NCBI RefSeq assembly: GCF_041146795.1
Contig: NC_135170.1
Span: 36,748,159 to 36,812,158 of the forward strand
Source of the DNA: Maylandia zebra
Lineage: Eukaryota; Chordata; Actinopteri; Cichliformes; Cichlidae
DNA length: 64,000 bases
Direction of reading: 5' to 3'
A program made the position numbers and the translations under genes. Below, in pieces: positions 4,494 to 61,418 of this stretch. Numbering within the stretch: the first letter of the stretch is position 1; each line of letters starts with the position of its first letter. The notes under the pieces were generated by a model, which saw only the letters and a list, made by a program, of their open reading frames with translations, did not search any database and had not been told where the DNA came from.

Positions 4494-7400
4494 CAACAGC
4501 CAGCAGCTGTCCGTCCAATCAGATACTGTGTACGGTACAACAACGCGCTGAGTCACTGTTAACCCTTTATCACACACGTGCTGGTCTATGTGTCCTTGAG
4601 AGGACCGGGCCCCGTGTGTTTTTCACTCTATTAAAGATGAGACGAAAGGACGAAGGACGAGGAAGACAATGGTTTTTGTTGAGCCTGACTGAAGTAGGAG
4701 CTTTAAATCAGTCATAAAGTGTTTTATAACCTCACACATAAATTCCTCAGGACAGTCCCTTCGTATTAAACTTCATGCTGTCCTGACTCAGAGCTGAACC
4801 TTAAACCACAGACGCTCTCATAAAAACCTAAAAAGACAAACAAACCAACCTTACACTGATCTGGTCTGGGACCAGAGGTCTGCAGGCTCTGATGAAACCC
4901 GGTGTGTGACACTCAGCTGTGTGATATTCAGCTCAGCAGGTTTGCATAAACGTTCACTGAGGGGAGAGTCAGTGCTGCTCTGACATGACTGTGCACAGCT
5001 GTCCTGCCTGCATGTGTGCAGCAAACGTGTGCTCAGCCTTCATGGCTGTGAGCATGCTGCTCCTTTACTCACAGTCTGAGTAACAGCCAACAGGGGCACG
5101 CTCCAGCAGACACAGTGGACTCTTCCATTCACACAGCAGATGTGAACCACAGCCTGAGATTAAAGGAAAGAGACACGGTGACGTGGAGTTCCACCTGGCT
5201 GTCACATCACAGTCACTCTCAGTGTCATTGATCTTTCTGAGGTAACTTCACTAATTCCTCCAAACCATCAACGAGCCCATTCCTACAAGACTGCTGGGAG
5301 AAGTCCTGCCATTAGAAAGCAGAGCTCTGCCTCCGTGTACACACCTGTGCTCATAGTCCCAGACACACCTGAGCGATACGGACGCTCTGTACCTGAGGAC
5401 AGCGAGGGGCGTGGCACCTGGATGTGGAAACATCTGTGTGAGCTGTAAATGCTTTGACATTTGTCTTGTTGTGTGAGTCTACCGGAGGTCACTGAGGGTA
5501 ACAGCCAATCACAGCAGACTTTACATTCACAACCATGAGGATGATTTCATGAAACTGATGTGCTGCACGCCACCTCTGCCCCCTCGTCACACTTTCGCAT
5601 CCACAGCACCTTTACTACAACAGCACTGACAGAAATACACGGTTTACTTTCAGAGGAACAGGTTTTCTTACTGCAGCGCAGTGAAGCTCTGATATTTACT
5701 GTGAGGTCGGAGCAGGTCATGATGGTGACACGAGCGCTCCTACAGACTCAGGATTCAATCGCGTTCACAACGACACGCTGCTGACGTCTCTGACTCGCTT
5801 GGAACCGATCTTTGACCTTTACTGTGAAACACTTAAGTATCTGTATCAAGCCTCCATGGAGAATCCTGGCTGACCTGTGACCTCTCAGGAAGTCTCATTT
5901 AGGTTCAAAGTTACTTTATTTAGACTTTACAGAGAAATGATGGCGTTTGTCGTCACAAAACACACCTATGTGAACCTGACACACACATGTTTGGTCATCA
6001 GGCACGATGAGTCTAATACAACAGTTCTTATTAAGTTGAGTGAGAGGAACAAAGCTGTTTCCATAACGCCTCGCCCTGCATCCCGCAGAGGATGGAGCCA
6101 TTATTAGAAGTGATAAATCCTCTGCACCTGTTTAGAGTCCAGGGAGGCTAAACAGGCTGCGACTCACCTGTCAGACGGCAGAGGTCTGAGCGAACCATGC
6201 CACCAAACGAGTCAAATCAGAAACAATCAAATGATTACAGGGAGTGCAGAATTATTAGGCAAGTTGTATTTCTGAGGAATAATTTTATTATTGAACAACA
6301 ACCATGTTCTCAATGAACCCAAAAAACTCATTAATATCAAAGCTGAATGTTTTTGGAAGTAGTTTTTAGTTTGTTTTTAGTTTTAGCTGTTTTAGGGGGA
6401 TATCTGTGTGTGCAGGTGACTATTACTGTGCAGAATTATTAGGCAACTTAACAAAAAACAAATATATACCCATTTCAATTATCTTGGACGTGTGTGATGG
6501 AGCACTGTCCTGCATGAAAATCATGTTTTTCTTGAAGGATGCAGACTTCTTCCTGTACCACTGCTTGAAGAAGGTGTCTTCCAGAAACTGGCAGTAGGAC
6601 TGGGAGTTGAGCTTGACTCCATCCTCAACCCGAAAAGGCCCCACAAGCTCATCTTTGATGATACCAGCCCAAACCAGTACTCCACCTCCACCTTGCTGGC
6701 GTCTGAGTGGGACTGGAGCTCTCTGCCCTTTACCAATCCAGCCACGGGCCCATCCATCTGGCCCATCAAGACTCACTCTCATTTCATCAGTCCATAAAAC
6801 CTTAGAAAAACCAGTCTTGAGATATTTCTTGGCCCAGTCTTGACGTTTCAGCTTGTGTGTCTTGTTCAGTGGTGGTCGTCTTTCAGCCTTTCTTACCTTG
6901 GCCATGTCTCTGAGTATTGCACACCTTGTGCTTTTGGGCACTCCAGTGATGTTGCAGCTCTGAAATATGGCCAAACTGGTGGCAAGTGGCATCTTGGCAG
7001 CTGCACGCTTGACTTTTCTCAGTTCATGGGCAGTTATTTTGCGCCTTGGTTTTTCCACACGCTTCTTGCGACCCTGTTGACTATTTTGAATGAAACGCTT
7101 GATTGTTTGATGATCACGCTTCAGAAGCTTTGCAATTTTGAGACTGCTGCATCCCTCTGCAAGATATCTCACTATTTTTGACTTTTCTGAGCCTGTCAAG
7201 TCCTTCTTTTGACCCATTTTGCCAAAGGAAAGGACGTTGCCTAATAATTATGCACACCTGATATAGGGTGTTGATGTCATTAGACCACACCCCTTCTCAT
7301 TACAGAGATGCACATCACCTAATATGCTTAATTGGTAGTAGGCTTTCGAGCCTATACAGCTTGGAGTAAGACAACATGCATGAAGAGGATGATGTGGACA

Positions 7401-8664
7401 AAATACTCATTTGCCTAATAATTCTGCACTCCCTGTATTATTATTATTTATTAAACGTGACAAACTTCATCTAATATTCTCTGTTAGACGGTATCAGGAA
7501 GTGACACGATGCAAACAGGCAGACAGAAAGATGAGAAACACTGGATTCCTCAGCAGCTGTGCTGGCAGAGTTTAAACAGGTCTGTTTTCATCCACCTGCT
7601 ACAAGTTTATTAACACTTTAACTGGATTATTCTGACAGAACGAGCTCACAGATGAGTAAAGCGCTGCAGTGTTTGGGAGTATGTGGCGTCTACAGCTGCT
7701 GATAACGGTGAAGGTAAAGTTGGGAGGCAAACCCATCGAAGCTCACCTCCGTTTATCTCACAGGCGTGCCGCGCCCTTCGGCAGTATCTATGGGCGTCTC
7801 CGGCCACCAGCTTGCTTTCAGTTAAACAGAACCAGCTCGTCTAACGTCGTTTCACACCAAACGCCGAGCAAAGCTTCGCCTCGTGTTGCTCGCACGTTTA
7901 CAGTCGCCGGTCTGTTTGTGGACACAAATGTTCACCTGTGACGACCAGCGAAAGAACAACCGTTTGTCCACAAACAGGGAGACGTCTTCACCTGGCCGCG
8001 GCGAGCTGGCACCGACACCTGCTCAGACTGAACGCCGCAGGAGGAGCACCCCGCGACCCCGACCCTGGACCTCGCTCTGACTGACGATAGCCTTAGTTTG
8101 ATGCTCTCAGCAGTGCCGCGCTTTTTTGGGGAGTTATTGCAGAAATGCATCTTGGGAGTTGTGGCCAATCATGTTCCTGTTAGTTTTACAGATGGGTCAC
8201 TGTCAGAAGGCGTGCTCATTAGTGCCGGTGTGTGAACTCATGTCGATGATGATGATGATGAAGAGTCTGAGAGCGTGCAGCTCGCTCAGCCCTGAGGACG
8301 GAGGCGCGTCCTCGCAGACACAAACTCAGGTGTGTTAAACATTTACCAAACCTAAAGGTCCTCATTCTGAGCCAATCAGAGCTCACGGTCTGAGGCATCA
8401 GCCAATAAAAGCATAAAACCGACCTCAGAGCTCAAACACACAAACTGACCTGAGATAAGAAACAAACAAGTACAAACAAACGATTATTGTTGTTTAGTAA
8501 ATAATAAAAACAAATCTTTACTTTTACCACTATTACTGTGTGTGTGTGTGTGCATGTGTGCGTGTGTGCATGCGTGTGTGTGTGTGCATGTGTGCGTGTG
8601 TGCATGCGTGTGTGTGTGTGCATGTGTGCGTGTGTGCATGCGTGTGTGTGTGTGCATGTGTGTG

Positions 8665-8709
<45 letters not shown>

Positions 8710-9114
8710 ATGTGTGTGTGTGTGTGCATGTGTGTGTGTTACCTGCAGCTCACACCAGGCCACCTCCACCGTGGTCTCGGTGTCGAGTCCTTTGTAAACC
8801 GCCTTAAAGGATCCTCGTCCGATCTCGATGTCGAACTTGAGGAATCGTCCATCGGGCGATGAAGCTACCGCCTGTGTCTCTGCTTCGTCGCGCTCTTCCT
8901 CCTTCTGTTGCCATGGTAACACCTCCCTGTTTGACAGCACTGCGGCCGCCTCCTCCCCAGAGTCCGAGCTGCCGTCCTGAGGCTTAACCGCAGCATCTGA
9001 TTGGCTGGCGGGGTCGTCCTTCGATGTGGTCATGTCCGACTCCTCTTCATTCTCTTGTTGTTTTTCTTCTTCAGGTCTTTTTTTGCTGTCGCTGTCAGGG
9101 GTCCAAGGCAGCAT
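67..9114 (-). CDS. wnk4: WNK lysine-deficient protein kinase, 5' part (partial, continues beyond window start)
   Basis: Cytosolic Ser/Thr kinase of the WNK family; known members phosphorylate SPAK/OSR1 and so control cation-chloride cotransport. Four coding exons on the minus strand join in frame: 8743-9114, 2562-2734, 312-532 and 67-224, each with GT/AG borders; later exons lie outside the window. The first ~90 residues are acidic and low-complexity. The kinase domain then opens with the glycine loop [11 protein letters not shown], which carries the WNK-type catalytic lysine, and VAWCEL has Cys where most kinases have Lys. Further along are [16 protein letters not shown] (DLG in place of DFG) and [17 protein letters not shown]. 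The segment [17 protein letters not shown] and HFLHSR fit WNK4 better than WNK1, which is why wnk4 is chosen; a fish paralogue is possible. The start ATG at 9114 is the first in the open frame; an upstream exon cannot be excluded. The introns carry L2, SINE and Tc1 insertions. Confidence 0.92.
800..2060 (-). mobile_element. degenerate L2-like LINE reverse transcriptase relic
   Basis: Read on the minus strand, broken frames show [20 protein letters not shown] and then [12 protein letters not shown] near 1680-1830. GSVLGP and YADDT follow near 1445-1565, and [10 protein letters not shown] lies near 830. These are reverse-transcriptase blocks in the L2/CR1 order. Stops and frameshifts are frequent, so it is an old, dead copy. 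It lies in the wnk4 intron between exons 2 and 3. Confidence 0.75.
2303..2445 (-). repeat. partial SINE (same family as 51408-51695)
   Basis: The stretch beginning with the taaatggtaaatggcctgt block and continuing through the 'cactggtgatggcagctaca' block repeats the sequence at 51408-51520. The tRNA-like end is missing here. It lies in the wnk4 intron between exons 2 and 3. Confidence 0.6.
2805..3632 (+). mobile_element. L2/Maui-like LINE, 3' end (5' truncated)
   Basis: The copy starts in the last coding block of the reverse transcriptase ([17 protein letters not shown]-like reading near 2820-2880) and runs through the 3' UTR. It ends in the tail 'gaattgaattgaat' after a ggcgctatataaataaaa block. 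The same 3' end recurs at 57476-57914 (inverted), 61419-62052 and, as a short tail, 50150-50263. It lies in wnk4 intron 1 and has no intact frame. Confidence 0.8.
3633..4423. other. A/T-rich intron sequence, nothing recognised
   Basis: wnk4 intron 1 sequence rich in aaataaa runs. No coding similarity or repeat family was recognised. Confidence 0.5.
4424..4491. repeat. (GT)n microsatellite
   Basis: A pure GT dinucleotide run of about 68 bases in wnk4 intron 1. Open frames across it are artefacts. Confidence 0.97.
4492..6237. other. wnk4 intron 1 sequence, nothing recognised
   Basis: About 1.7 kb of unique-looking intron sequence. Short open frames here show no family motifs and are treated as chance. 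Confidence 0.5.
6238..7435 (-). mobile_element. Tc1/mariner-like element with internally deleted transposase, copy 1
   Basis: The 1198-bp element lies in wnk4 intron 1. Outer terminal inverted repeats start cagggagtgcagaattatta and are flanked by a TA duplication (6236-6237 and 7436-7437). Similar inner repeats near 6427 and 7240 give the IR/DR layout of many Tc1 elements. The minus-strand frame (7217 to 6423, 264 residues) begins [15 protein letters not shown], has an HTH N-terminus, and carries the first two catalytic Asp in WTDEM and FMQDSAPSH. About 20 residues after the second Asp the frame runs straight into the inner repeat. The C-terminal catalytic part with the third acidic residue is therefore missing, and the product should be inactive. 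Copy 2 at 47996-49192 has the same break. Confidence 0.93.
7436..8536. other. wnk4 intron 1 sequence, nothing recognised
   Basis: About 1.1 kb between the Tc1-like element and a microsatellite. No gene or repeat was recognised, and the open frames are short and featureless. Confidence 0.5.
8537..8739. repeat. compound GT/GCATGT microsatellite next to wnk4 exon 1
   Basis: GT runs are interrupted by regular gcatgtgtgc and gcatgcgtgt blocks forming a higher-order repeat. It starts only a few bases inside the intron from the wnk4 exon 1 donor at 8742-8741. Several open frames here, including the tail of the first wnk4 frame, are read-through of the repeat. Confidence 0.95.
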
Positions 9115-10136
9115 CCTCCACCTGTGTCAGCTGACTGGTGGTGATGTCTGAGTAGGAGGAGCTGTGGGAGGGTCGATGGAGACACGAGATGTTAAACATC
9201 ACCATGACGACACACCAACATACAACAACTGCATAACCTGAGCGTCACACAACATACGACCTGATGAATCGGTGCAGCATCGACTCATTTAAACTTGTTG
9301 ATCCGATCAGTATCAGAGGGCGTTAATGAAAAGAATAACAGGTGCAGGGGCAGCAACGACACACCCCCTGAAACAGGAAACAGGTGGAGGTCGCTGACAC
9401 TTCCCCTCCTCATCTGACTGCTTTTCACCAGATGTGCATCTGGCTGGGGTCAGTGTGAGGCCATACCTGCAGCCTATAAAGGGCGTCCGTCACTTCCACT
9501 TAACCCACCAGCAGGACCAGTATCTGCTCCTCTGTGTAAGGATGAGCTCTGCCGGAGCCACAACATGACCTCCAGCAAGAACACTCTGAGCACCGTCACA
9601 GACTCCATGAGGGTGGCCCGAGAGCCCGATGTGAGCCCTGTGCTCCTGCCCAGCACCGTGGAGCCTGACGGGCATGTGCCACAGAGTACCAGAGCTGCCC
9701 TGTGCTTCTCACAGATGTGTGAGCAGCTTCAGCCTGAGCACACGTGACAGACGTGAAGGGTCAGGAGAAGCTGAGGAGAACGCTACGCTGCCTGTAACAT
9801 CGTTCAGAGACTTGATGGCAGATCAGTGATGGTCGGGGGAGGCGTATCCACGGAGGGACACCAGTGTAGCGGGTCCCGCGTTCCTCTGGTGGAAGACGTG
9901 TGGAGGACGAAGGACGTGATGGGCCCACACGCTCGTCTGACCTAAAGCTTGCAGAACATCCGGGACATGATGTCTGTACCTCAGACAGGAGCTCAGACCG
10001 GGTCCAGATCTGAGAGGAGGTCCTTTAGCACGCGCTCGCCCCGACGTTATCATCATGTACATAAAACACGAGGCCACACAAACTACTCACTTGGTTTTAC
10101 TTTGGTCTGATTTTTTAAAGAAACTTCACTGAAGTT
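9115..10136. other. wnk4 upstream region, no gene recognised
   Basis: This holds wnk4 5' flank and probably 5' UTR or promoter. The stretch 9450-10080 is moderately GC-rich and has several short open frames on both strands but no family motif. It may be an old repeat that I could not name. Confidence 0.45.
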
Positions 10137-19035: not shown

Positions 19036-19080
19036 ACATTTTGAGCCTCAAAAAGGTCTTCAAACTTGTGAGGACCAGTG

Positions 19081-20956
19081 AGTGAGCCTTCAAGAGCCTT
19101 CAAGAGAGTGAACACCAGGAAAGCAGCAGGACCAGACGGCATCCCAGGTCGTATCCTCAGAGACTGCGCATACCAGCTAGCTCCTGTGTTCACTGAGATA
19201 TTCAACATCTCTTTATCTCAGTCGGTGATCCCCACATGCTTCAAAGAGTCCATCATTGTTCCTGTCCCGAAGAAACCCCACCCTGCTTCTCTCAATGACT
19301 ATCGCCCTGTAGCCCTCACCTCAGTAGTGATGAAGTGCTTTGAACGCCTGGTCAGAGACTTCATCATTTCTTCACTACCAGACACACTGGACCCACTACA
19401 GTTCGCTTACCGTCCAAATCGTTCCACAGACGATGCCATCTCTCATCTCCTCCACACATCACTCACTCACTTGGACACTAGAAGGGGGAATTATGTTAAA
19501 ATGCTCTTCATAGACTACAGCTCTGCATTTAACACCATAATTCCCTCCACACTCACCACCAAGCTGGAGCATCTGGGACTCAGCTCATCTATGTGTCAGT
19601 GGATCTCCAACTTCCTAACTGGCAGACCACAGGCAGTAAGGATGGGCGGACATGTCTCAGCCTCCACCACTCTCAGCACTGGAGCCCCCCAGGGGTGTGT
19701 TCTGAGCCCCCTGCTGTACTCTTTGTACACATATGACTGTGTGGCCACTACCAGCTCCACCACCATCATCAAGTTTGCTGACGACACCGTCGTGGTGGGC
19801 CTGATCTCTGATAACAACGAGACGGCCTACGTGAAGGAGATTAGGAATCTGGAGAACTGGTGCCAGAGGAACAACCTCCTTCTAAACGTCAGTAAGACAA
19901 AGGAGCTGATAGTGGACTTCAGCACTAAGCAGGAGAGGAACTACCAGACCCCCATCATCAACGAGTGCCCAGTGGAGAGAGTGGACAGCTTCAAATACCT
20001 CGGAGTTCACATCACGCAGGACCTGTCATGGTCCTGTCACATCAACACCGTGGTGAAAAAGGCCCGACAGCGTCTCTACCACCTCAGACGCTTGAGAGAC
20101 TTCCAACTGCCCTCCAAGGTGCTCAGGAACTTTTACTCGTGCACCATAGAGAGCATCCTGACGGGAAACATCTTAACCTGGTTCGGGAACAGCACCATGC
20201 AGGACAGACGAGCTCTACAGAGGGTTGTGCGGTCAGCTGAGCGCACCATCCGCTCCGAGCTCCCTGACCTGCACTCAATCTACAGCAGGCGGTGCTGGAC
20301 CAAGGCCAGGAAGATCGTGAAGGACCTCAGCCATCCCAACAACAGACTGTTCTCTCTGTTGAGGTCAGGAAAGCGATTCCGCTCCCTGAAGACCAACACA
20401 GAGAGACTGAGGAGGAGCTTCTTCCCGCAGGCGATACGGTCTCTCAATCACACCACCACACAGTACTGACCCACACATACAGTTCTTACACACACACTGG
20501 ACTTTCTGGACTTTGTTTTTGCACAACACTGGTCACTATATTCTTCATTTCCGGTTAATACTTGTACAGCTGCTGTTATTGTGTATATATTTATTTATAT
20601 TTAGATTTCTTCATACATTCTTATATAGTTCTATATTGTGTATTTTGTTGTACAGTTATTTTATTTTCAACTTTAATTTATATATTTATCTTTATCTTAT
20701 TCTTCCCAGTTAAATTTACCCTTCATTCTAATTTGTGTTGTACAGTTATTTCATTTTTAACCTTAATTTATATTTTATTCCTTCCTAGTTAAATTTACCC
20801 TTTTTAATTTTTCATATTTATTTCCTATCTTATTCATAGCCTTTTCCTTTTTTGTTCTCTTTAGGTCACGAGCAGTTGTCCAAGCATTTCACTACATATC
20901 GTACTGTGTATGACTGTGTACGTGACAAATAAAATTTGAATTTGAATTTGAATTTG
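19081..20956 (+). mobile_element. Rex1-like (CR1/L2 group) LINE with intact reverse transcriptase frame, 5' truncated
   Basis: An open frame of 463 residues (19078-20469) covers the whole reverse-transcriptase domain. It has [62 protein letters not shown] and the catalytic [10 protein letters not shown], then the thumb and C-terminal block. The endonuclease half and any ORF1 are missing through 5' truncation. The 3' UTR ends in an (aatttg)n tail at about 20930-20956. The Rex1 assignment is from memory of fish LINE types; the CR1/L2 group is safer. Related copies are at 20957-21782, 37692-37946 and 59738-61407. Confidence 0.87.
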
Positions 20957-21782
20957 AAGGTGCTCAGGAACTTTTACTCGTGCACCATAGAGAGCATCCT
21001 GGCGGGAAACATCTTAACCTGGTTCGGGAACAGCACCATGCAGGACAGACGAGCTCTACAGAGGGTTGTGCGGTCAGCTGAGCGCACCATCCGCTCCGAG
21101 CTCCCTGACCTGCACTCAATCTACAGCAGGCGGTGCTGGACCAAGGCCAGGAAGATGGTGAAGGACCTCAGCCATCCCAACAACAGACTGTTCTCTCTGC
21201 TGAGGTCAGGAAAGCGATTCCACTCCCTGAAGACCAACACAGAGAGACTGAGGAGGAGCTTCTTCCCGCAGGCGATACGGTCTCTCAATCACACCACCAC
21301 ACAGTACTGACCCACACATATGGTTCTTACACACACACTGGACTTTCTGGACTTTGGTTTTGCACAACACTGGTCACTATATTCTTCATTTCCGGTTAAT
21401 ACTTGTACAGCTGCTGTTATTGTGTATATATTTATTTATATTTCTTCATACATTCTTATATAGTTCTATATTGTGTATTTTGTTGTACAGTTATTTTATT
21501 TTCTACTTTAATTTATATATTTTATCTTATTCTTCCCAGTTAAATTTACCCTTCATTCTAATTTGTGTTGTACAGTTATTTCATTTTTAACCTTAATTTA
21601 TATTTTATTCCTTCCTAGTTAAATTTACCCTTTTTAATTTTTCATATTTATTTCCTATCTTATTCATAGCCTTTTCCTTTTTTGTTTTCTTTAGGTCACG
21701 AGCAGTTGTCCAAGCATTTCACTACATATCGTACTGTGTATGACTGTGTACGTGACAAATAAAATTTGAATTTGAATTTGAG
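20957..21782 (+). mobile_element. second, more truncated copy of the same LINE joined to the tail of the first
   Basis: It begins at the position equivalent to 20117 of the first copy and repeats the last ~124 codons (ending at 21310), the 3' UTR and the (aatttg)n tail. Differences are few, so the two copies are of similar age. It abuts the tail of the first copy with no spacer. Confidence 0.88.
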
Positions 21783-33640: not shown

Positions 33641-33891
33641 TGCTCCAGGGGTAAAAATGTGTGGAGTTTATCTAAACGCAGGAAGGAAAGCTTGAAGAAA
33701 GCACCGCTGTGCGTCCAGCACAGAGCCACAGCCTGCTGGGTGAAAGCAAAGAACAAATATAAAGAGTGTTCACAGCAGCAAACAGGCTGACTGACCTTTG
33801 ACCCTCACTGCCCTCAGTCATTACTGTTTATATGATGATGATAATGATGGTGAAACGTTTCTCCCATGAAGGCGTCCTTTCCTGCTCTGTG

Positions 33892-36793
33892 ATGGACAGA
33901 GAAACCTCCATGATGAGCACTGCTGCTGACGAGCTGCTGGAGGCCAGTTTCTCCAGGATAAAGATTTTGGACCACTATAGAGATCAGCTTACAGCCCTGT
34001 CTGAGGAGCTCAAGGAACTAAAGCCAAAATATAACAGGACAGGATGTGTTAAGTTTTTTTCAAGGAGATCATCTTCCCTATTGTCTTGTCCTGAAATCAC
34101 TGAATCACTGGAGAAGTTGCAGAAGATAGAAGGTGAAATCAATGAAGCCCAGCAAAAAAACGAGGAACTGTTAGAGAAGCTGAAGATTTCTACAAACAGC
34201 TGTGAGCACGTCGTGGAAGAAATTCTGTCAGCAGCAGCAAAAAGACTTAAAGTCAAGAACCAAATTAACTTCAGCTCAGCATCAGCTCGAAAACTCATCC
34301 AAGAAATGTCTCGATGTGAGTTTCAGCACATCCTCGAAGGAAAAGTGGTGGTGAGGTTCTGTTATTTCATTTTTACATCATCATTAGTGAGATCTAAACA
34401 CATACTAAAGGTTTAAAAACATATCATTCATGCTTTTATGGTTTATCACTGCAGCAGTTTTTCCCTTAACACTGACAAACTGATGAAGAACAGAAATGAT
34501 TCTGTTGTAACCTGTTCTCTCTGACGGTCAGGTTGGATCTGTAGATGGTGGAAAGGAGTTGCCACTTCCTGAAGTCATTCAAATGTCGACAGAATTAATC
34601 CGGAAGAATCATGTGACCGAAGCTAGCGAATCACTGAGAGCTGCAGCTGACAAGATCAAAAAGTTCATCTGGGACCTTTTTCAGCAATTCAGCAACATTG
34701 AGTAAGTTTTTCTCTCTGTATATAAAATGACTCCACCACAGCTCTGACTTCCTGTAGGTGTTAAACAACCAATGAAATCTTCTTATGGCCTCTCACGTCG
34801 CGATGAGACACATAGTCAATAGTGCGCCAACAACCCTCTCTGGGACACGCCCCCCTCCCACTGGGGTTTACATACGTGGGACTCTCCACCATTTGGTCTT
34901 AAAACTGAAGAAGGTTCTCGGATGAAGCGTCTTCACAAACTCGAAGAAGTCCAGTCGGCTCCGGGAGTATCCTGTGTAACTGCGAGAGATCAGCTCAAAG
35001 GGAAACCCTTCTCCAAGAAAACAAGCTCGACTATGTCACAGGTGAACCTCCACCATGCACATGTGGCACATGTGGCAGGGATCCATGTTCATAAAGCCCA
35101 GCGACACTCGAACCACTTTCTGAACCTGCGAGGCTTCAGACGTCATCGATGACGACACATTAGGTGATCAGCTGTGAAAACACCTGGATCACTGCTGTCA
35201 CTGCCTTTGTGTTGTGTTTGGAGTTAGTTTCTGGGTGCTGAGGTTTGGAAACTGTTCTCAAACTCTTCTCTGTGTGACCCCCCCCCCCAAATCAACATAT
35301 GACCCAGTTTAAAACCCTGATGCTCACTAACCATGAGTTACAACAGTAGATCAACCTAACGATGCCTGAATTGAACTCATATCCTTTAAAGAATTTGGCA
35401 CGGTCACAGCAAATCTGCCAGGTTGGAGCACAGACTTACATCCATTGTTCTGAATTACTAAGTCCTCCATAAATAATCACCAAGGAAACTATAAACAACA
35501 TCATGTCACAGTCAGGCAGGATTTCATTAGTAAATTTGCTGCATTCCAGCTGTTTTAGGTAAATCTGGTACGAGTCCTGTTTGTTGTTTGTTGTTTGTGG
35601 TGACGACTTACAGCTGAAATCACACTGACTCGACCTTCACTGGGTTCTTTTACAGAGACAAGGTGATCAAGCTACCTCAACAAGCAGGTGAAGAACAGTC
35701 TGCCTCCGAAACAAGGAGTGGTGGTGACAACAAGGAAGAAAGTAATCAACCAAGTGAGGAGAGTGGTGTTGATGACACAAAGAAAGATAAAGACTATGTG
35801 CCCCCACCTTACTGGCGTGATAGTGATGATGGTAATGGTGCTGCTAAAAGGAAATTTAACGAGCAGAAGAATGCAAGCGATGCTGGAAGCTGGGTGCTGA
35901 TCAATTTTCGCTCGATTAAAGGGAAAAAGGAAAAATTGAAGGGTTTATTAGAGAAAAACAAAGATGTATTAATTTTAACAGAGACGTGGACGAAAAATGA
36001 AAAGAAGAAGCACAAGGATCAGGTCCTTCGAGACATGTTAACTGAAGAGTACAAATTTGTTCAGTTTACGAGGGAAGAGAACAAAAAAGGAGGTGGCGTC
36101 GCGATTTTATTCTTAAAGACCCTTTACAAGGGTAAAAAAATTAATCTGATCTCAGCCAAACACTTTGAATATGTGGCTGTAAGGCTGAAGCGAACTGGTT
36201 ACCAACCTGTCCTGGTCATCGGTGTGTATCGCCCTCCGCAGACGAAATTCAAAGATTTCCAGCCGGAGTTTGAAAGCCTCTTGCAGGACGTTTCTGCAAA
36301 ATGCAAAGACTGCATCATTTTGGCTGGAGATTTTAATATCTGGGTTGATAAAAAGTTGAAGAACAAAACCAAAAAAAAAATCAAAAAAAGATTTTCGTCT
36401 ATATTGAACAAAAACAGTCTTAAGCAACATGTAAAAAGCCCAACACATAAAGGAGGTCACATTCTGGATCTGGTCATCAGCAGAAATGTTGAAGTCTCTG
36501 ATCTGAGTGTTCGTAATGACGACATAGCAGATCATTGCAGTATATACTTCAATGCCACACCTCCCCTTAAAGCAGAGGAGACTGAAGATGAGGATGAATT
36601 TGAAGATGAATTTGAGGATCAAGTTGTGAATGAAGTTAAGGATGAAGATGAGGATGAAGTTGAGGATGAAGATGAGGATGAGGTTGAGGATGAGGTTGAG
36701 GATGAAGATGAGGATGAAGTTGAGGATGAAGATGAGGATGAGGTTGAGGATGAAGATGAGCCCACAAAAAAAATGAAAAAAAGTGAAGAGTAG
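33892..36793 (+). CDS. putative host gene: helical N-terminus fused to a LINE-type APE-like endonuclease domain and an acidic tail
   Basis: Three exons join with GT/AG borders and matching phases: 33892-34350, 34532-34701 and 35656-36793 (588 residues). The ATG at 33892 has G at -3 and +4; the frame is open from 33802, so an earlier start or exon is possible. Residues 1-~209 are predicted largely helical and rich in Glu/Lys heptad-like stretches; I do not recognise the family. Residues ~288-509 align block by block with LINE endonucleases: INFRSI (Asn293), LTETW (Glu319), KKGGGVAILF, GVYRPP (Tyr401), AGDFNIWVD (Asp435, Asn437), HILDLVIS (Asp481) and ADHC (Asp502, His503). The usual metal-binding and catalytic residues are all present. 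Residues ~516-578 are a Glu/Asp tail. No reverse transcriptase follows. Introns argue against a processed copy. Nuclease activity is inferred only; a chance fusion or pseudogene remains possible. Confidence 0.62.
34835..34960 (+). mobile_element. Penelope-like element end fragment in intron 2 of the endonuclease-fusion gene
   Basis: The block around gggactctccaccatttgg, then actgaagaaggttctcggat and gaagaagtccag, repeats the end region of the Penelope-like element at 15560-15640 in diverged form. Confidence 0.65.
36571..36762 (+). repeat. GATGAAGATGAGGATGAG-type coding repeat (acidic tail)
   Basis: Imperfect tandem units of gat/gag/gaa/gtt codons encode the Asp/Glu tail of the fusion gene. 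The period is about 24-36 bases and stays in frame to the stop at 36791-36793. Confidence 0.85.
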
Positions 36794-37691
36794 AAAACTT
36801 GATGCACCTATTTGTCCTTTAAAAGCTGAAATATGTTGGACTCCTGGACGTCCGAGCATTGACGTTTCAGGAGTCATCATCATACACACATAACACATCG
36901 CATTGACTCAGGGGGCTGAATAATCACGCACACCCACTTTGCAGTTATTTATTTGTTAAAAATGTTCGGAATCATGTCTGATTTTCGTTCCACTTCTCAC
37001 AGATTTGGAGAAGGGTGGCAGATGTAACTGGCTGATAATGTTAAAAAAAATTCTACCCACTGTTAACCATAATTCAATAACCCTGTAAAACTAATAACTG
37101 AATGTGCTTTTAACTCTTCTTAGAATGAGATTTTAACCACTACGGTGCAAAGTTTTTAGATACTGTGTTGATAAAGTACAAGAGATACAATCAGTCAGTG
37201 TTTATTCAGCAGTCAAGGACATCAATATTTGCATAGTATTTTTACTGACATGTTTTGGGCAAAAACATTTTGAATTTTAAAATACGAACATTTGTAACAA
37301 ACAATTGACAAATTAGCCAGTTCCAATGTAAAACTTTATCTGCCTGTTAAAAAAAGAAGATAATCTTCTCACAAACTGGTGTTTGATTTTGAAACAGGAA
37401 AAAAGTGGGGAAACAAATGAAAAGACTAACATTTGAATAAAACCTGAAAGCAAGTAAATACTTTCTATGCTGCCTTATGGTAAACTTTGGTAATATTGAT
37501 AAAGAACAGCACTGGCTGATGATGAAATACAGTCAGCTGGCATGGTGACACTGCCAGTATTAACCTGCAGGGCTGGACTGGGACAGAAAATTGGCCCCAG
37601 GTATTAAAGCCATAAAGCCTTTGAATGAAAACAAACCCTGTTGTGACAGTGATGTACAGTCTTGTTGGTATATGTATGATTTCTAAACATT
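36794..37691. other. downstream flank of the endonuclease-fusion gene
   Basis: A/T-rich sequence with no reverse-transcriptase remnant. A candidate polyadenylation signal (aataaa) lies near 37436. Confidence 0.5.
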
Positions 37692-41492: not shown

Positions 41493-41801
41493 TTACTTTT
41501 GAAGGTTCACTCTTTGACCGCCCCCTTCTGCCGTATTTTGCGGCAAAATTAGCCAAAAATCAGAAGATTGATAATATATCTTTTTTCGATTTATTTTGTC
41601 GGTATGTGAGAGGCCAAATAGAATATGTTGAAACTTCAGTTTACACGAGGCATCAATTTTGGTGTTTATAAAATTATTTAGATCAATCCAAAATACATGA
41701 CATGTTGGTTCCTCTGCATTGCTGCAAAAAGTACAAAGAGTGTCAATATTTTTCTTAAATTTAACCAGATATGTCTTTACCAGATAACATCTATGGATCA
41801 A
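41493..41801 (-). mobile_element. L1-like LINE C-terminal relic
   Basis: The minus frame reads TLCTFCSNAEEPTCHVFW followed by KLKFQHILFGL, the CxFC...H.FW zinc-knuckle end typical of fish L1-type reverse transcriptases. The rest of the element is missing. Confidence 0.6.
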
Positions 41802-41875
41802 CTTAAGAGTAACTTCTCTGAGCTTAGTAGTTTATTTTATTACTACCTGTAATTCTCACTAATAACTCTTTTAGG

Positions 41876-47995: not shown

Positions 47996-49192
47996 CAGGG
48001 AGTGCAGAATTATTAGGCAAGTTGTATTTCTGAGGAATAATGTTATTATTGAACAACAACCATGTTCTCAATGAACCCAAAAAACTCATTAATATCAAAG
48101 CTGAATGTTGTTGGAAGTAGTTTTTAGTTTGTTTTTAGTTTTAGCTATTTTAGGGGGATATCTGTGTGTGCAGGTGACTATTACTGTGCAGAATTATTAG
48201 GCAACTTAACAAAAACAAATATATACCCATTTCAATTATCTTGGACGCGTGTGATGGAGCATTGTCCTGCATGAAAATCATGTTTTTCTTGAAGGATGCA
48301 GACTTCTTCCTGTACCACTGCTTGAAGAAGGTGTCTTCCAGAAACTGGCAGTAGGACTGGGAGTTGAGCTTGACTCCATCCTCAACCCGAAAAGGCCCCA
48401 CAAGCTCATCTTTGATGATACCAGCCCAAACCAGTACTCCACCTCCACCTTGCTGGCGTCTGAGTGGGACTGGAGCTCTCTGCCCTTTACCAATCCAGCC
48501 ACGGGCCCATCCATCTGGCCCATCAAGACTCACTCTCATTTCATCAGTCCATAAAACCTTAGAAAAACCAGTCTTGAGATATTTCTTGGCCCAGTCTTGA
48601 CGTTTCAGCTTGTGTGTCTTGTTCAGTGGTGGTCGTCTTTCAGCCTTTCTTACCTTGGCCATGTCTCTGAGTATTGCACACCTTGTGCTTTTGGGCACTC
48701 CAGTGATGTTGCAGCTCTGAAATATGGCCAAACTGGTGGCAAGTGGCATCTTGGCAGCTGCACGCTTGACTTTTCTCAGTTCATGGGCAGTTATTTTGCT
48801 CCTTGGTTTTTCCACACGCTTCTTGCGACCCTGTTGACTATTTTGAATGAAATGCTTGATTGTTCGATGATCACGCTTCAGAAGCTTTGCAATTTTGAGA
48901 CTGCTGCATCCCTCTGCAAGATATCTCACTATTTTTGACTTTTCTGAGCCTGTCAAGTCCTTCTTTTGACCCATTTTGCCAAAGGAAAGGACGTTGCCTA
49001 ATAATTATGCACACCTGATATAGGGTGTTGATGTCATTAGACCACACCCCTTCTCATTACAGAGATGCACATCACCTAATATGCTTAATTGGTAGTAGGC
49101 TTTCGAGCCTCTACAGCTTGGAGTAAAACAACATGCATGAAGAGGATGATGTGGACAAAATACTCATTTGCCTAATAATTCTGCACTCCCTG
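47996..49192 (-). mobile_element. Tc1/mariner-like element with internally deleted transposase, copy 2
   Basis: The 1197-bp sister of the element at 6238-7435 has the same terminal repeats and a TA duplication (47994-47995 and 49193-49194). The minus frame 48974-48150 differs from copy 1 at five residues over the first ~249. It then shifts frame by loss of one A in an A-run near 48209-48214. The same break after [11 protein letters not shown] removes the third catalytic residue. It lies beside the L1-like fragment. Confidence 0.93.
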
Positions 49193-57475: not shown

Positions 57476-59737
<2,262 letters not shown>

Positions 59738-61407
59738 TTCAAATTCAAATTTTATTTGTCACGTACACAGTCATACACAGTACGATATGTAGTGAAATGC
59801 TTGGACAACTGCTCGTGACCTAAAGAAAACAAAAAAGGAAAAGGCTATGAATAAGATAGGAAATAAATATGAAAAATTAAAAAGGGTAAATTTAACTAGG
59901 AAGGAATAAAATATAAATTAAGGTTTAAAAATGAAATAACTGTACAACACAAATTAGAATGAAGGGTAAATTTAACTGGGAAGAATAAGATAAAATATAT
60001 AAATTAAAGTTGAAAATAAAATAACTGTACAACAAAATACACAATACACAATATAGAACTATATAAGAATGTATGAAGAAATCTAAATATAAATAAATAT
60101 ATACACAATAACAGCAGCTGTACAAGTATTAACCGGAAATGAAGAATATAGTGACCAGTGTTGTGCAAAAAAACAATGTGTGCAAAACCAAAGTCCAGAA
60201 AGTCCAGTGTGTGTGTAAGAACCATATGTGTGGGTCAGTACTGTGTGGTGGTGTGATTGAGAGACCGTATCGCCTGCGGGAAGAAGCTCCTCCTCAGTCT
60301 CTCTGTGTTGGTCTTCAGGGAGCGGAATCGCTTTCCTGACCTCAGCAGAGAGAACAGTCTGTTGTTGGGATGGCTGAGGTCCTTCACCATCTTCCTGGCC
60401 TTGGTCCAGCACCGCCTGCTGTAGATTGAGTGCAGGTCAGGGAGCTCGGAGCGGATGGTGCGCTCAGCTGACCGCACAACCCTCTGTAGAGCTCGTCTGT
60501 CCTGCATGGTGCTGTTCCCGAACCAGGTTAAGATGTTTCCCGCCAGGATGCTCTCTATGGTGCACGAGTAAAAGTTCCTGAGCACCTTGGAGGGCAGTTG
60601 GAAGTCTCTCAAGCGTCTGAGGTGGTAGAGACGCTGTCGGGCCTTTTTCACCACGGTGTTGATGTGACAGGACCATGACAGGTCCTGCGTGATGTGAACT
60701 CCGAGGTATTTGAAGCTGTCCACTCTCTCCACTGGGCACTCGTTGATGACGGGGGTCTGGTAGTTCCTCTCCTGCTTAGTGCTGAAGTCCACTATCAGCT
60801 CCTTTGTCTTACTGACGTTTAGAAGGAGGTTGTTCCTCTGGCACCAGTTCTCCAGATTCCTAATCTCCTTCAGGTAGGCCGTCTCGTTGTTATCAGAGAT
60901 CAGGCCCACCACGACGGTGTCGTCAGCAAACTTGATGATGGTGGTGGAGCTGGTAGTGGCCACACAGTCATATGTGTACAGAGAGTACAGCAGGGGGCTC
61001 AGAACACACCCCTGGGGGGCTCCAGTGCTGAGAGTGGTGGAGGCTGAGACATGTCCGCCCATCCTTACTGCCTGTGGTCTGCCAGTTAGGAAGTTGGAGA
61101 TCCACTGACACATAGATGAGCTGAGTCCCAGATGCTCCAGCTTGGTGGTGAGTGTGGAGGGAATTATGGTGTTAAATGCAGAGCTGTAGTCTATGAAGAG
61201 CATTTTAACATAATTCCCCCTTCTAGTGTCCAAGTGAGTGAGTGATGTGTGGAGGAGATGAGAGATGGCATCGTCTGTGGAACGATTTGGACGGTAAGCG
61301 AACTGTAGTGGGTCCAGTGTGTCTGGTAGTGAAGAAATGATGAAGTCTCTGACCAGGCGTTCAAAGCACTTCATCACTACTGAGGTGAGGGCTACAGGGC
61401 GATAGTC
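59738..61407 (-). mobile_element. Rex1-like LINE, RT-containing, inserted in the L2 element
   Basis: The minus-strand frame 61377-60235 (380 residues) is nearly identical to the copy at 19321-20469. It has [48 protein letters not shown] and [10 protein letters not shown]. The 3' UTR and tail reach 59738. The 5' end stops at the [10 protein letters not shown] block (near 61407). The close match to the other copies suggests recent activity of this family. Confidence 0.9.
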
Positions 61408-61418
61408 GATGAGTCATT

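Follow-up and report, generated by a model that had tools for sequence, protein, structure and literature searches.

Host genes made from the proteins of long interspersed nuclear elements (LINEs) appear to be rare. In the accessible part of PMC4161310, L1TD1 is given as the only gene described, as of 2014, as newly formed from a non-long terminal repeat (non-LTR) element, next to smaller exonizations such as that of bcntp97, cited there as a ruminant gene that gained an RTE-derived exon. L1TD1 is a protein-coding gene of placental mammals that is tied to genome defence; in the same partial text it comes from open reading frame 1 (ORF1) of LINE-1, not from the endonuclease, and has no known enzymatic activity (PMC4161310). 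The gene described here is likewise LINE-derived. It lies at 33892-36793 (+) in a stretch of 64,000 nucleotides from the cichlid Maylandia zebra (NC_135170.1, positions 36,748,159 to 36,812,158; the whole stretch is referred to as the window, and coordinates count from its first letter) and, unlike L1TD1, it joins a LINE-type endonuclease (EN) to an apolipoprotein-L (ApoL)-like domain in a fish. The nearest precedent is bcntp97, a host gene with LINE coding sequence gained as an extra exon, as here. Iwashita et al. reportedly described it in 2006 as a bucentaur paralogue with an exon from an RTE non-LTR element, and this exon is said to encode the endonuclease part. The two cases differ in that bcntp97 involves bucentaur, RTE and ruminants, whereas the present family involves ApoL and many teleosts, is multicopy and keeps the catalytic set in 35 ENs.

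On the ApoL side, mammalian APOL1 and APOL3 are membrane-associated proteins that act on trypanosomes and intracellular bacteria, according to the accessible part of PMC13177371. They have the ApoL domain (PF05461) in common with the fish family and belong to a membrane-active, infection-linked multigene family (same partial text, PMC13177371). The window copy, unlike both, is without the hydrophobic segments. We know of no nuclease domain in APOL1 or APOL3. On the nuclease side, the ENs of LINE ORF2 proteins, such as that of human LINE-1 (PDB 8sp7 and 1vyb) and that of a LINE at 58.3-59.1 kb of the window itself, have the fold and catalytic residues of the window EN; the window gene differs from them in having no reverse transcriptase (RT), in being joined to ApoL in a predicted spliced gene and in belonging to a separate EN clade. 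A literature search, largely without subscription journals, returned no description of ApoL joined to a LINE endonuclease, and by term counts the words 'fish' and 'endonuclease' are absent from the accessible text of the APOL reviews. An earlier, sequence-only reading of this locus had stated that no vertebrate gene of this layout is described; the search agrees, with bcntp97 to be set beside it as a related precedent. The novelty is the recognition of the layout, the sequences themselves being already in databases as uncharacterised entries. An EN family that is multicopy, occurs in many teleosts, keeps its catalytic set and is joined to an APOL-type domain would count as an unusually clear and old example of such a host gene; it also offers the APOL proteins, known for membrane action, a possible enzymatic arm.

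The gene has three exons, 33892-34350, 34532-34701 and 35656-36793, which join into one frame of 1767 nt, encoding 588 residues and a stop, with splice phases 0 at the first junction and 2 at the second. Both introns are of GT-AG type: intron 1 (34351-34531, 181 nt) has donor GTGAGG and acceptor GGTCAG, and intron 2 (34702-35655, 954 nt) has donor GTAAGT and acceptor TTACAG. Exon 1 encodes the initial part of the ApoL-like domain; it matches a family ApoL profile at E = 4.1e-11, and collinear matches cover positions 2-45 and 103-172 of the ApoL model. Exon 2 encodes the C-terminal helical part of that domain, including the KNHVTEASESLR motif (profile E = 7.9e-14; BLAST against P0007, P0008 and P0010). 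Exon 3, which matches a family EN profile at E = 6.1e-83, carries a linker (35656-35884, approximately residues 210-286), the EN domain (35885-36565, approximately residues 287-513, assigned from Pfam, catalytic residues and predicted fold), an acidic repeat (36583-36760, a 12-nt tandem unit in 14.8 copies), a basic tail and the stop. The first AATAAA past the stop, at 37436-37441, is by its motif alone a candidate poly(A) signal. The first in-frame ATG of exon 1 is at 33892, but relatives begin with M(S/A)TAD, equivalent to window residues 8-13, which makes the ATG at 33913 the more probable translation start. In a six-frame scan of the whole window (stop-free segments of at least 25 amino acids), an ApoL profile built with the window protein excluded matches 33802-34413 and 34511-34702, collinearly and on the same strand, with no third match at E <=10, and the family EN profile matches exon 3 and the LINE near 58 kb only. 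Because the two profiles match exons 1-3 in order, the exon structure is backed by homology beyond the splice motifs, and the frame, borders and phases of the sequence-only reading were recovered on recomputation. The splicing of this three-exon gene is a prediction.

The N-terminal part, which the same reading took for a novel helical domain, is by profile similarity ApoL-like instead, of the kind found in the membrane-active APOL1 and APOL3, minus two hydrophobic segments of its relatives. By BLAST it aligns over approximately 100 residues with P0007 of Parambassis (E = 1.6e-11) and P0008 of Chaetodon (E = 4.3e-12), with a KNHVTEASxSLR block common to all three. Among 39 EN-bearing members, Pfam ApoL (PF05461) is present at E <=0.01 in 14, the best value being 3.3e-07. 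It is also present in 23 of 28 relatives picked from the matches of an N-terminal search, a choice biased to known ApoL matches since it was made partly because PF05461 was precomputed for them. The match of the window protein to the ApoL family profile (E = 9.8e-20) consists of three collinear pieces and omits model positions 46-102 and 173-224, the two hydrophobic stretches, and a Kyte-Doolittle plot of it has no hydrophobic segment. Hydrophobic regions, two or three in number, are present in most complete relatives; P0040 and P0050 of Dicentrarchus have none. Since both segments are missing, the window product is likely soluble. In the structural model of P0026, the first ApoL hydrophobic region (residues 46-88) is of low confidence (pLDDT <50), and fold searches with full-length P0026 return endonuclease-type chains, which are uninformative on the ApoL fold. 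The 20 weak PDB matches of the N-terminal profile (best E 0.09), to a haemolysin BL component, viral fusion proteins and coiled coils, are read as chance similarity of hydrophobic or helical sequence.

Within the C-terminal half, residues 307-506 match Exo_endo_phos_2 (PF14529, E = 4.6e-10) and Exo_endo_phos (PF03372, E = 9.8e-08), and the exon 3 EN, as originally noticed, can be aligned with the LINE EN at 58293-59100 (30% identical residues, E = 4.5e-20). The domain is APE-type, with key residues N293, E319, Y401, D435, N437, T473, D481, D502 and H503, and its predicted fold matches the LINE-1 endonuclease (8sp7/1vyb). A PDB sequence search with the whole window protein as query gave no match. 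All 35 ENs compared retain the catalytic and metal-binding positions, among them D502 and H503, and 34 of the 35 retain the Tyr; the Arg of the YRPP motif is replaced by His in 17 of the 35. As had been claimed, no RT is attached: Pfam detects none in the 588-residue frame, which ends at 36793, nor in the four frames of at least 120 amino acids between 38.0 and 43.9 kb. On the opposite strand, zf-RVT matches a shorter frame (41493-41831) at a sub-threshold E of 0.0035. The window LINE frame, 58191-59480 (+) and 430 amino acids long, gives EN matches and no RT, and is a truncated or broken copy; the L2 label that the sequence-only reading gave this LINE is provisional, the EN tree described below giving the element no resolved place. 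Behind the EN, the tandem repeat encodes an acidic stretch that is short in the five nearest relatives and has probably expanded in the window copy. The protein then ends in a basic KKMKKSEE, a basic tail ending in EE being common to the window protein and many relatives.

The same layout occurs widely in teleosts. A whole-protein search gave 20 relatives from 7992 scored candidates and the N-terminal search gave 64 matches from 7997, the candidates scored in each being those sharing most words, and the EN of P0007 as query returned 72 proteins at E <=1e-5, many of them uncharacterised teleost proteins. Among 152 sequences (149 database proteins and three from the window), 41 match the ApoL profile at E <=1e-5 and also 180 or more positions of the EN profile; 27 of these were rows used in building the ApoL profile, and 14, including the window protein, were not. 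The 41 represent 24 teleost species as well as P0026, P0057 and the window, and span Cypriniformes, Lampriformes and percomorphs. PF05461 is precomputed for several of these teleost proteins, and no RT is among the precomputed Pfam domains of the listed relatives with the ApoL-EN layout. Unbroken ApoL-EN frames also occur on short contigs, in P0026 (675 residues on 2304 nt) and P0057 (681 residues on 2760 nt, 17 member sequences), which we infer to be cDNA assemblies. No nucleotide-level relatives were found in the genome-contig and viral-contig collections. The family is multicopy; for instance, three Parambassis proteins lie on equally sized contigs, as do two Dicentrarchus genes. Since proteins with this layout recur in 24 teleost species, the sequences argue strongly against a chance fusion.

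The ENs of these proteins form a group of their own. From 93 sequences with an EN match, manual selection removed 21 that were isoforms, near-duplicates or partial ENs (P0001, P0010, P0028, P0029, P0033, P0035-P0037, P0039-P0041, P0046, P0048, P0049, P0056, P0059-P0062, P0082 and P0150), leaving 72, and a length filter removed none. Labels were fixed before the tree was built: 35 'fusion', 34 'LINE' and three 'ambiguous' (P0063, P0071 and P0089, frames without RT). The 'fusion' label covers 28 ENs with an ApoL part and seven EN-only frames on short contigs (P0002-P0006, P0009 and P0012), and the 'LINE' label covers P0013, P0014 and the window LINE despite the lack of RT in their frames. The 35 'fusion' ENs fall on one side of a branch and the 34 LINE ENs on the other, with support of 100/100, and each of 200 bootstrap trees has this split. 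The 28 ENs that come with an ApoL part, that of the window included, are all in one clade with no LINE inside. The capture was thus most likely ancient and single, as judged from this topology, and the proposal that a LINE EN became the final exon of a host gene gains support from both the recurrent layout and the separate clade. The window gene combines a domain derived from a transposable element, without transposition machinery and in a predicted spliced gene, with membership in a single-origin family found across species; by these marks it is classed as a domesticated transposable-element gene.

Selection on the EN was addressed at the protein level, as a stand-in for dN/dS, by asking whether columns conserved in 29 other members are spared from change in six close sequences (the window and P0002-P0006). 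In this subfamily, variation is seen in 7 of the 74 columns conserved elsewhere and in 64 of the other 154 (Fisher p = 3.1e-7, in a sample which, coming from a protein search, holds open frames only). Columns gapped in any of the six were left out, so that loop indels are uncounted. On this protein-level evidence, the EN is still under constraint in the subfamily of the window. Changes confined to the window copy number seven, 0 of 74 at conserved columns and 7 of 154 at others, a difference that is not significant (p = 0.099). By eye, the six differ in length in the linker, around the YRPP motif and at the lysine-rich loop after GDFNIWVD, and a DNA or partner interface may be evolving at these length-variable loops.

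Taken together, we favour with moderate confidence the explanation that a teleost ApoL gene captured a LINE EN once, as its last exon or part of it, and kept it as a working nuclease. The retained EN would be a Mg2+-dependent, DNA-nicking enzyme. The ApoL part of most members, which has hydrophobic segments, would act on membranes by insertion or remodelling, with the nuclease borne on a flexible, acidic linker. The window copy is expected to be a soluble, perhaps nuclear nuclease, because the membrane segments are missing and the basic KKMKKSEE end follows the acidic repeat, and its helical, ApoL-derived part might serve in oligomerisation or targeting. Against the ApoL-like identity of the N-terminal part, Pfam ApoL does not match the window protein itself at E <=1, and no APOL chain is among the PDB matches to the N-terminal profile. 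The lack of RT is by itself weak proof, since the window's own LINE frame at 58.2-59.5 kb is also EN-only; the short contigs of P0026 and P0057 could instead be intronless copies; and broken copies would escape the constraint test. The observation made in the sequence-only reading is confirmed and strengthened, and its interpretation as a whole is partly supported.

As for function, a role in innate immunity, by attack on the nucleic acid of intracellular pathogens or mobile elements, is the likeliest candidate, though a tentative one, suggested by APOL biology, the multicopy state and the loop indels; a multicopy state with variable loops would fit a defence gene. For the soluble product expected of the window copy, attacking pathogen DNA or restraining mobile elements would both be compatible roles. 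A more specific version is possible though doubtful: a teleost two-part immune effector, with an ApoL domain for membrane attack or targeting and an active LINE-derived nuclease, amplified and diversified in the manner of an arms race, from which the window lineage turned soluble by loss of the membrane segments. If true, such an effector would be a vertebrate parallel to toxins in which a nuclease is coupled to a membrane part.

Among the alternatives to a captured, working nuclease, the one that survives best, though unlikely, is that the EN is kept as a dead or binding-only module, such as a decoy restraining LINE integration or a DNA-binding anchor. The Arg to His replacement in YRPP would agree with this, as would acidic linkers and tails if these mimic DNA; binding alone, however, would not need the catalytic and metal positions that all 35 ENs keep, nor the nearly invariant Tyr. 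It is also quite improbable that the host-gene family is real and the window copy a degenerate, non-expressed paralogue. The lost hydrophobic segments, the expanded tandem repeat, the seven window-only EN substitutions and a long branch leading to the six-member subfamily point in that direction, but the 588-codon frame is intact with good splice sites, all seven of those changes lie outside the 74 conserved columns (the trend that does not reach significance), and five close relatives have the subfamily EN in open frames, though a protein search finds open frames only.

A chance fusion, in which a decaying LINE fragment beside an old exon pair yields a joined frame as an accident of prediction, was the alternative offered by the sequence-only reading and is now very improbable. 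The window does hold further LINE and Tc1-like frames, one of which (58191-59480) likewise has EN without RT, and splicing at the locus is predicted from the sequence. The rival is nevertheless largely refuted by the architecture shared among many fish with a single EN clade, and the matches of exons 1 and 2 to the ApoL family agree in strand and order; the kept catalytic set, the constrained EN subfamily and the EE-ending basic tail of many relatives argue against it as well. Equally hard to credit is that the database fusions are automatic gene-model artefacts, with ApoL genes read into adjoining LINE copies as the chimaeric look of P0091 and P0092 might suggest, because independent read-throughs should scatter among the LINE ENs, whereas the 28 ENs form one clade at 100/100 and the full frame is unbroken on contigs of 2.3-2.8 kb.

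Some further features of the fish ApoL family were seen. PF28311 is precomputed on many N-terminal domains of the family and is absent from the matches of the local Pfam library. In P0091 of Perca flavescens, the gene model joins the ApoL-like domain to an RT, and in P0092 of Perca fluviatilis the domain is joined to an RNase A that has a signal-peptide-like stretch of its own, in mid-protein. RT and RNase A as swappable payloads were set aside, both models being probable read-throughs; an ApoL-RNase fusion, if real, would be notable. P0118 and P0143 are ApoL-like with a C-terminal half of about 250 residues, similar to each other by eye and without a convincing Pfam match, which is possibly another partner domain of the family.

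The sequence-only reading placed the gene between psmd3 and csf3. For psmd3, this placement stands: TPR, PCI and Rpn3_C Pfam matches are found in frames at 24.3-27.3 kb, and the present gene lies downstream. The other flank, at approximately 54.5-56.1 kb, is presumably csf3 to judge by its residue pattern, which neither Pfam nor PDB confirmed; the four candidate exons have no Pfam match, and two of them searched against PDB gave no meaningful match. Capture at the psmd3-csf3 locus itself, as that reading proposed, is a candidate scenario, the family being multicopy. Elsewhere in the window, an exon at 8533-9126 (-) is presumably WNK kinase-like, judging by a motif; its frame includes a CA-repeat tail and has no Pfam match. 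Two near-identical Tc1-like transposase frames, with HTH and DDE_3 matches, lie at 6423-7247 (-) and 48150-49004 (-). RT-type frames are present at 19072-20469 (+), 20933-21310 (+) and 60235-61413 (-) and are near-identical by eye where they overlap, the first of them matching RVT_1 plus ALKBH8_N.
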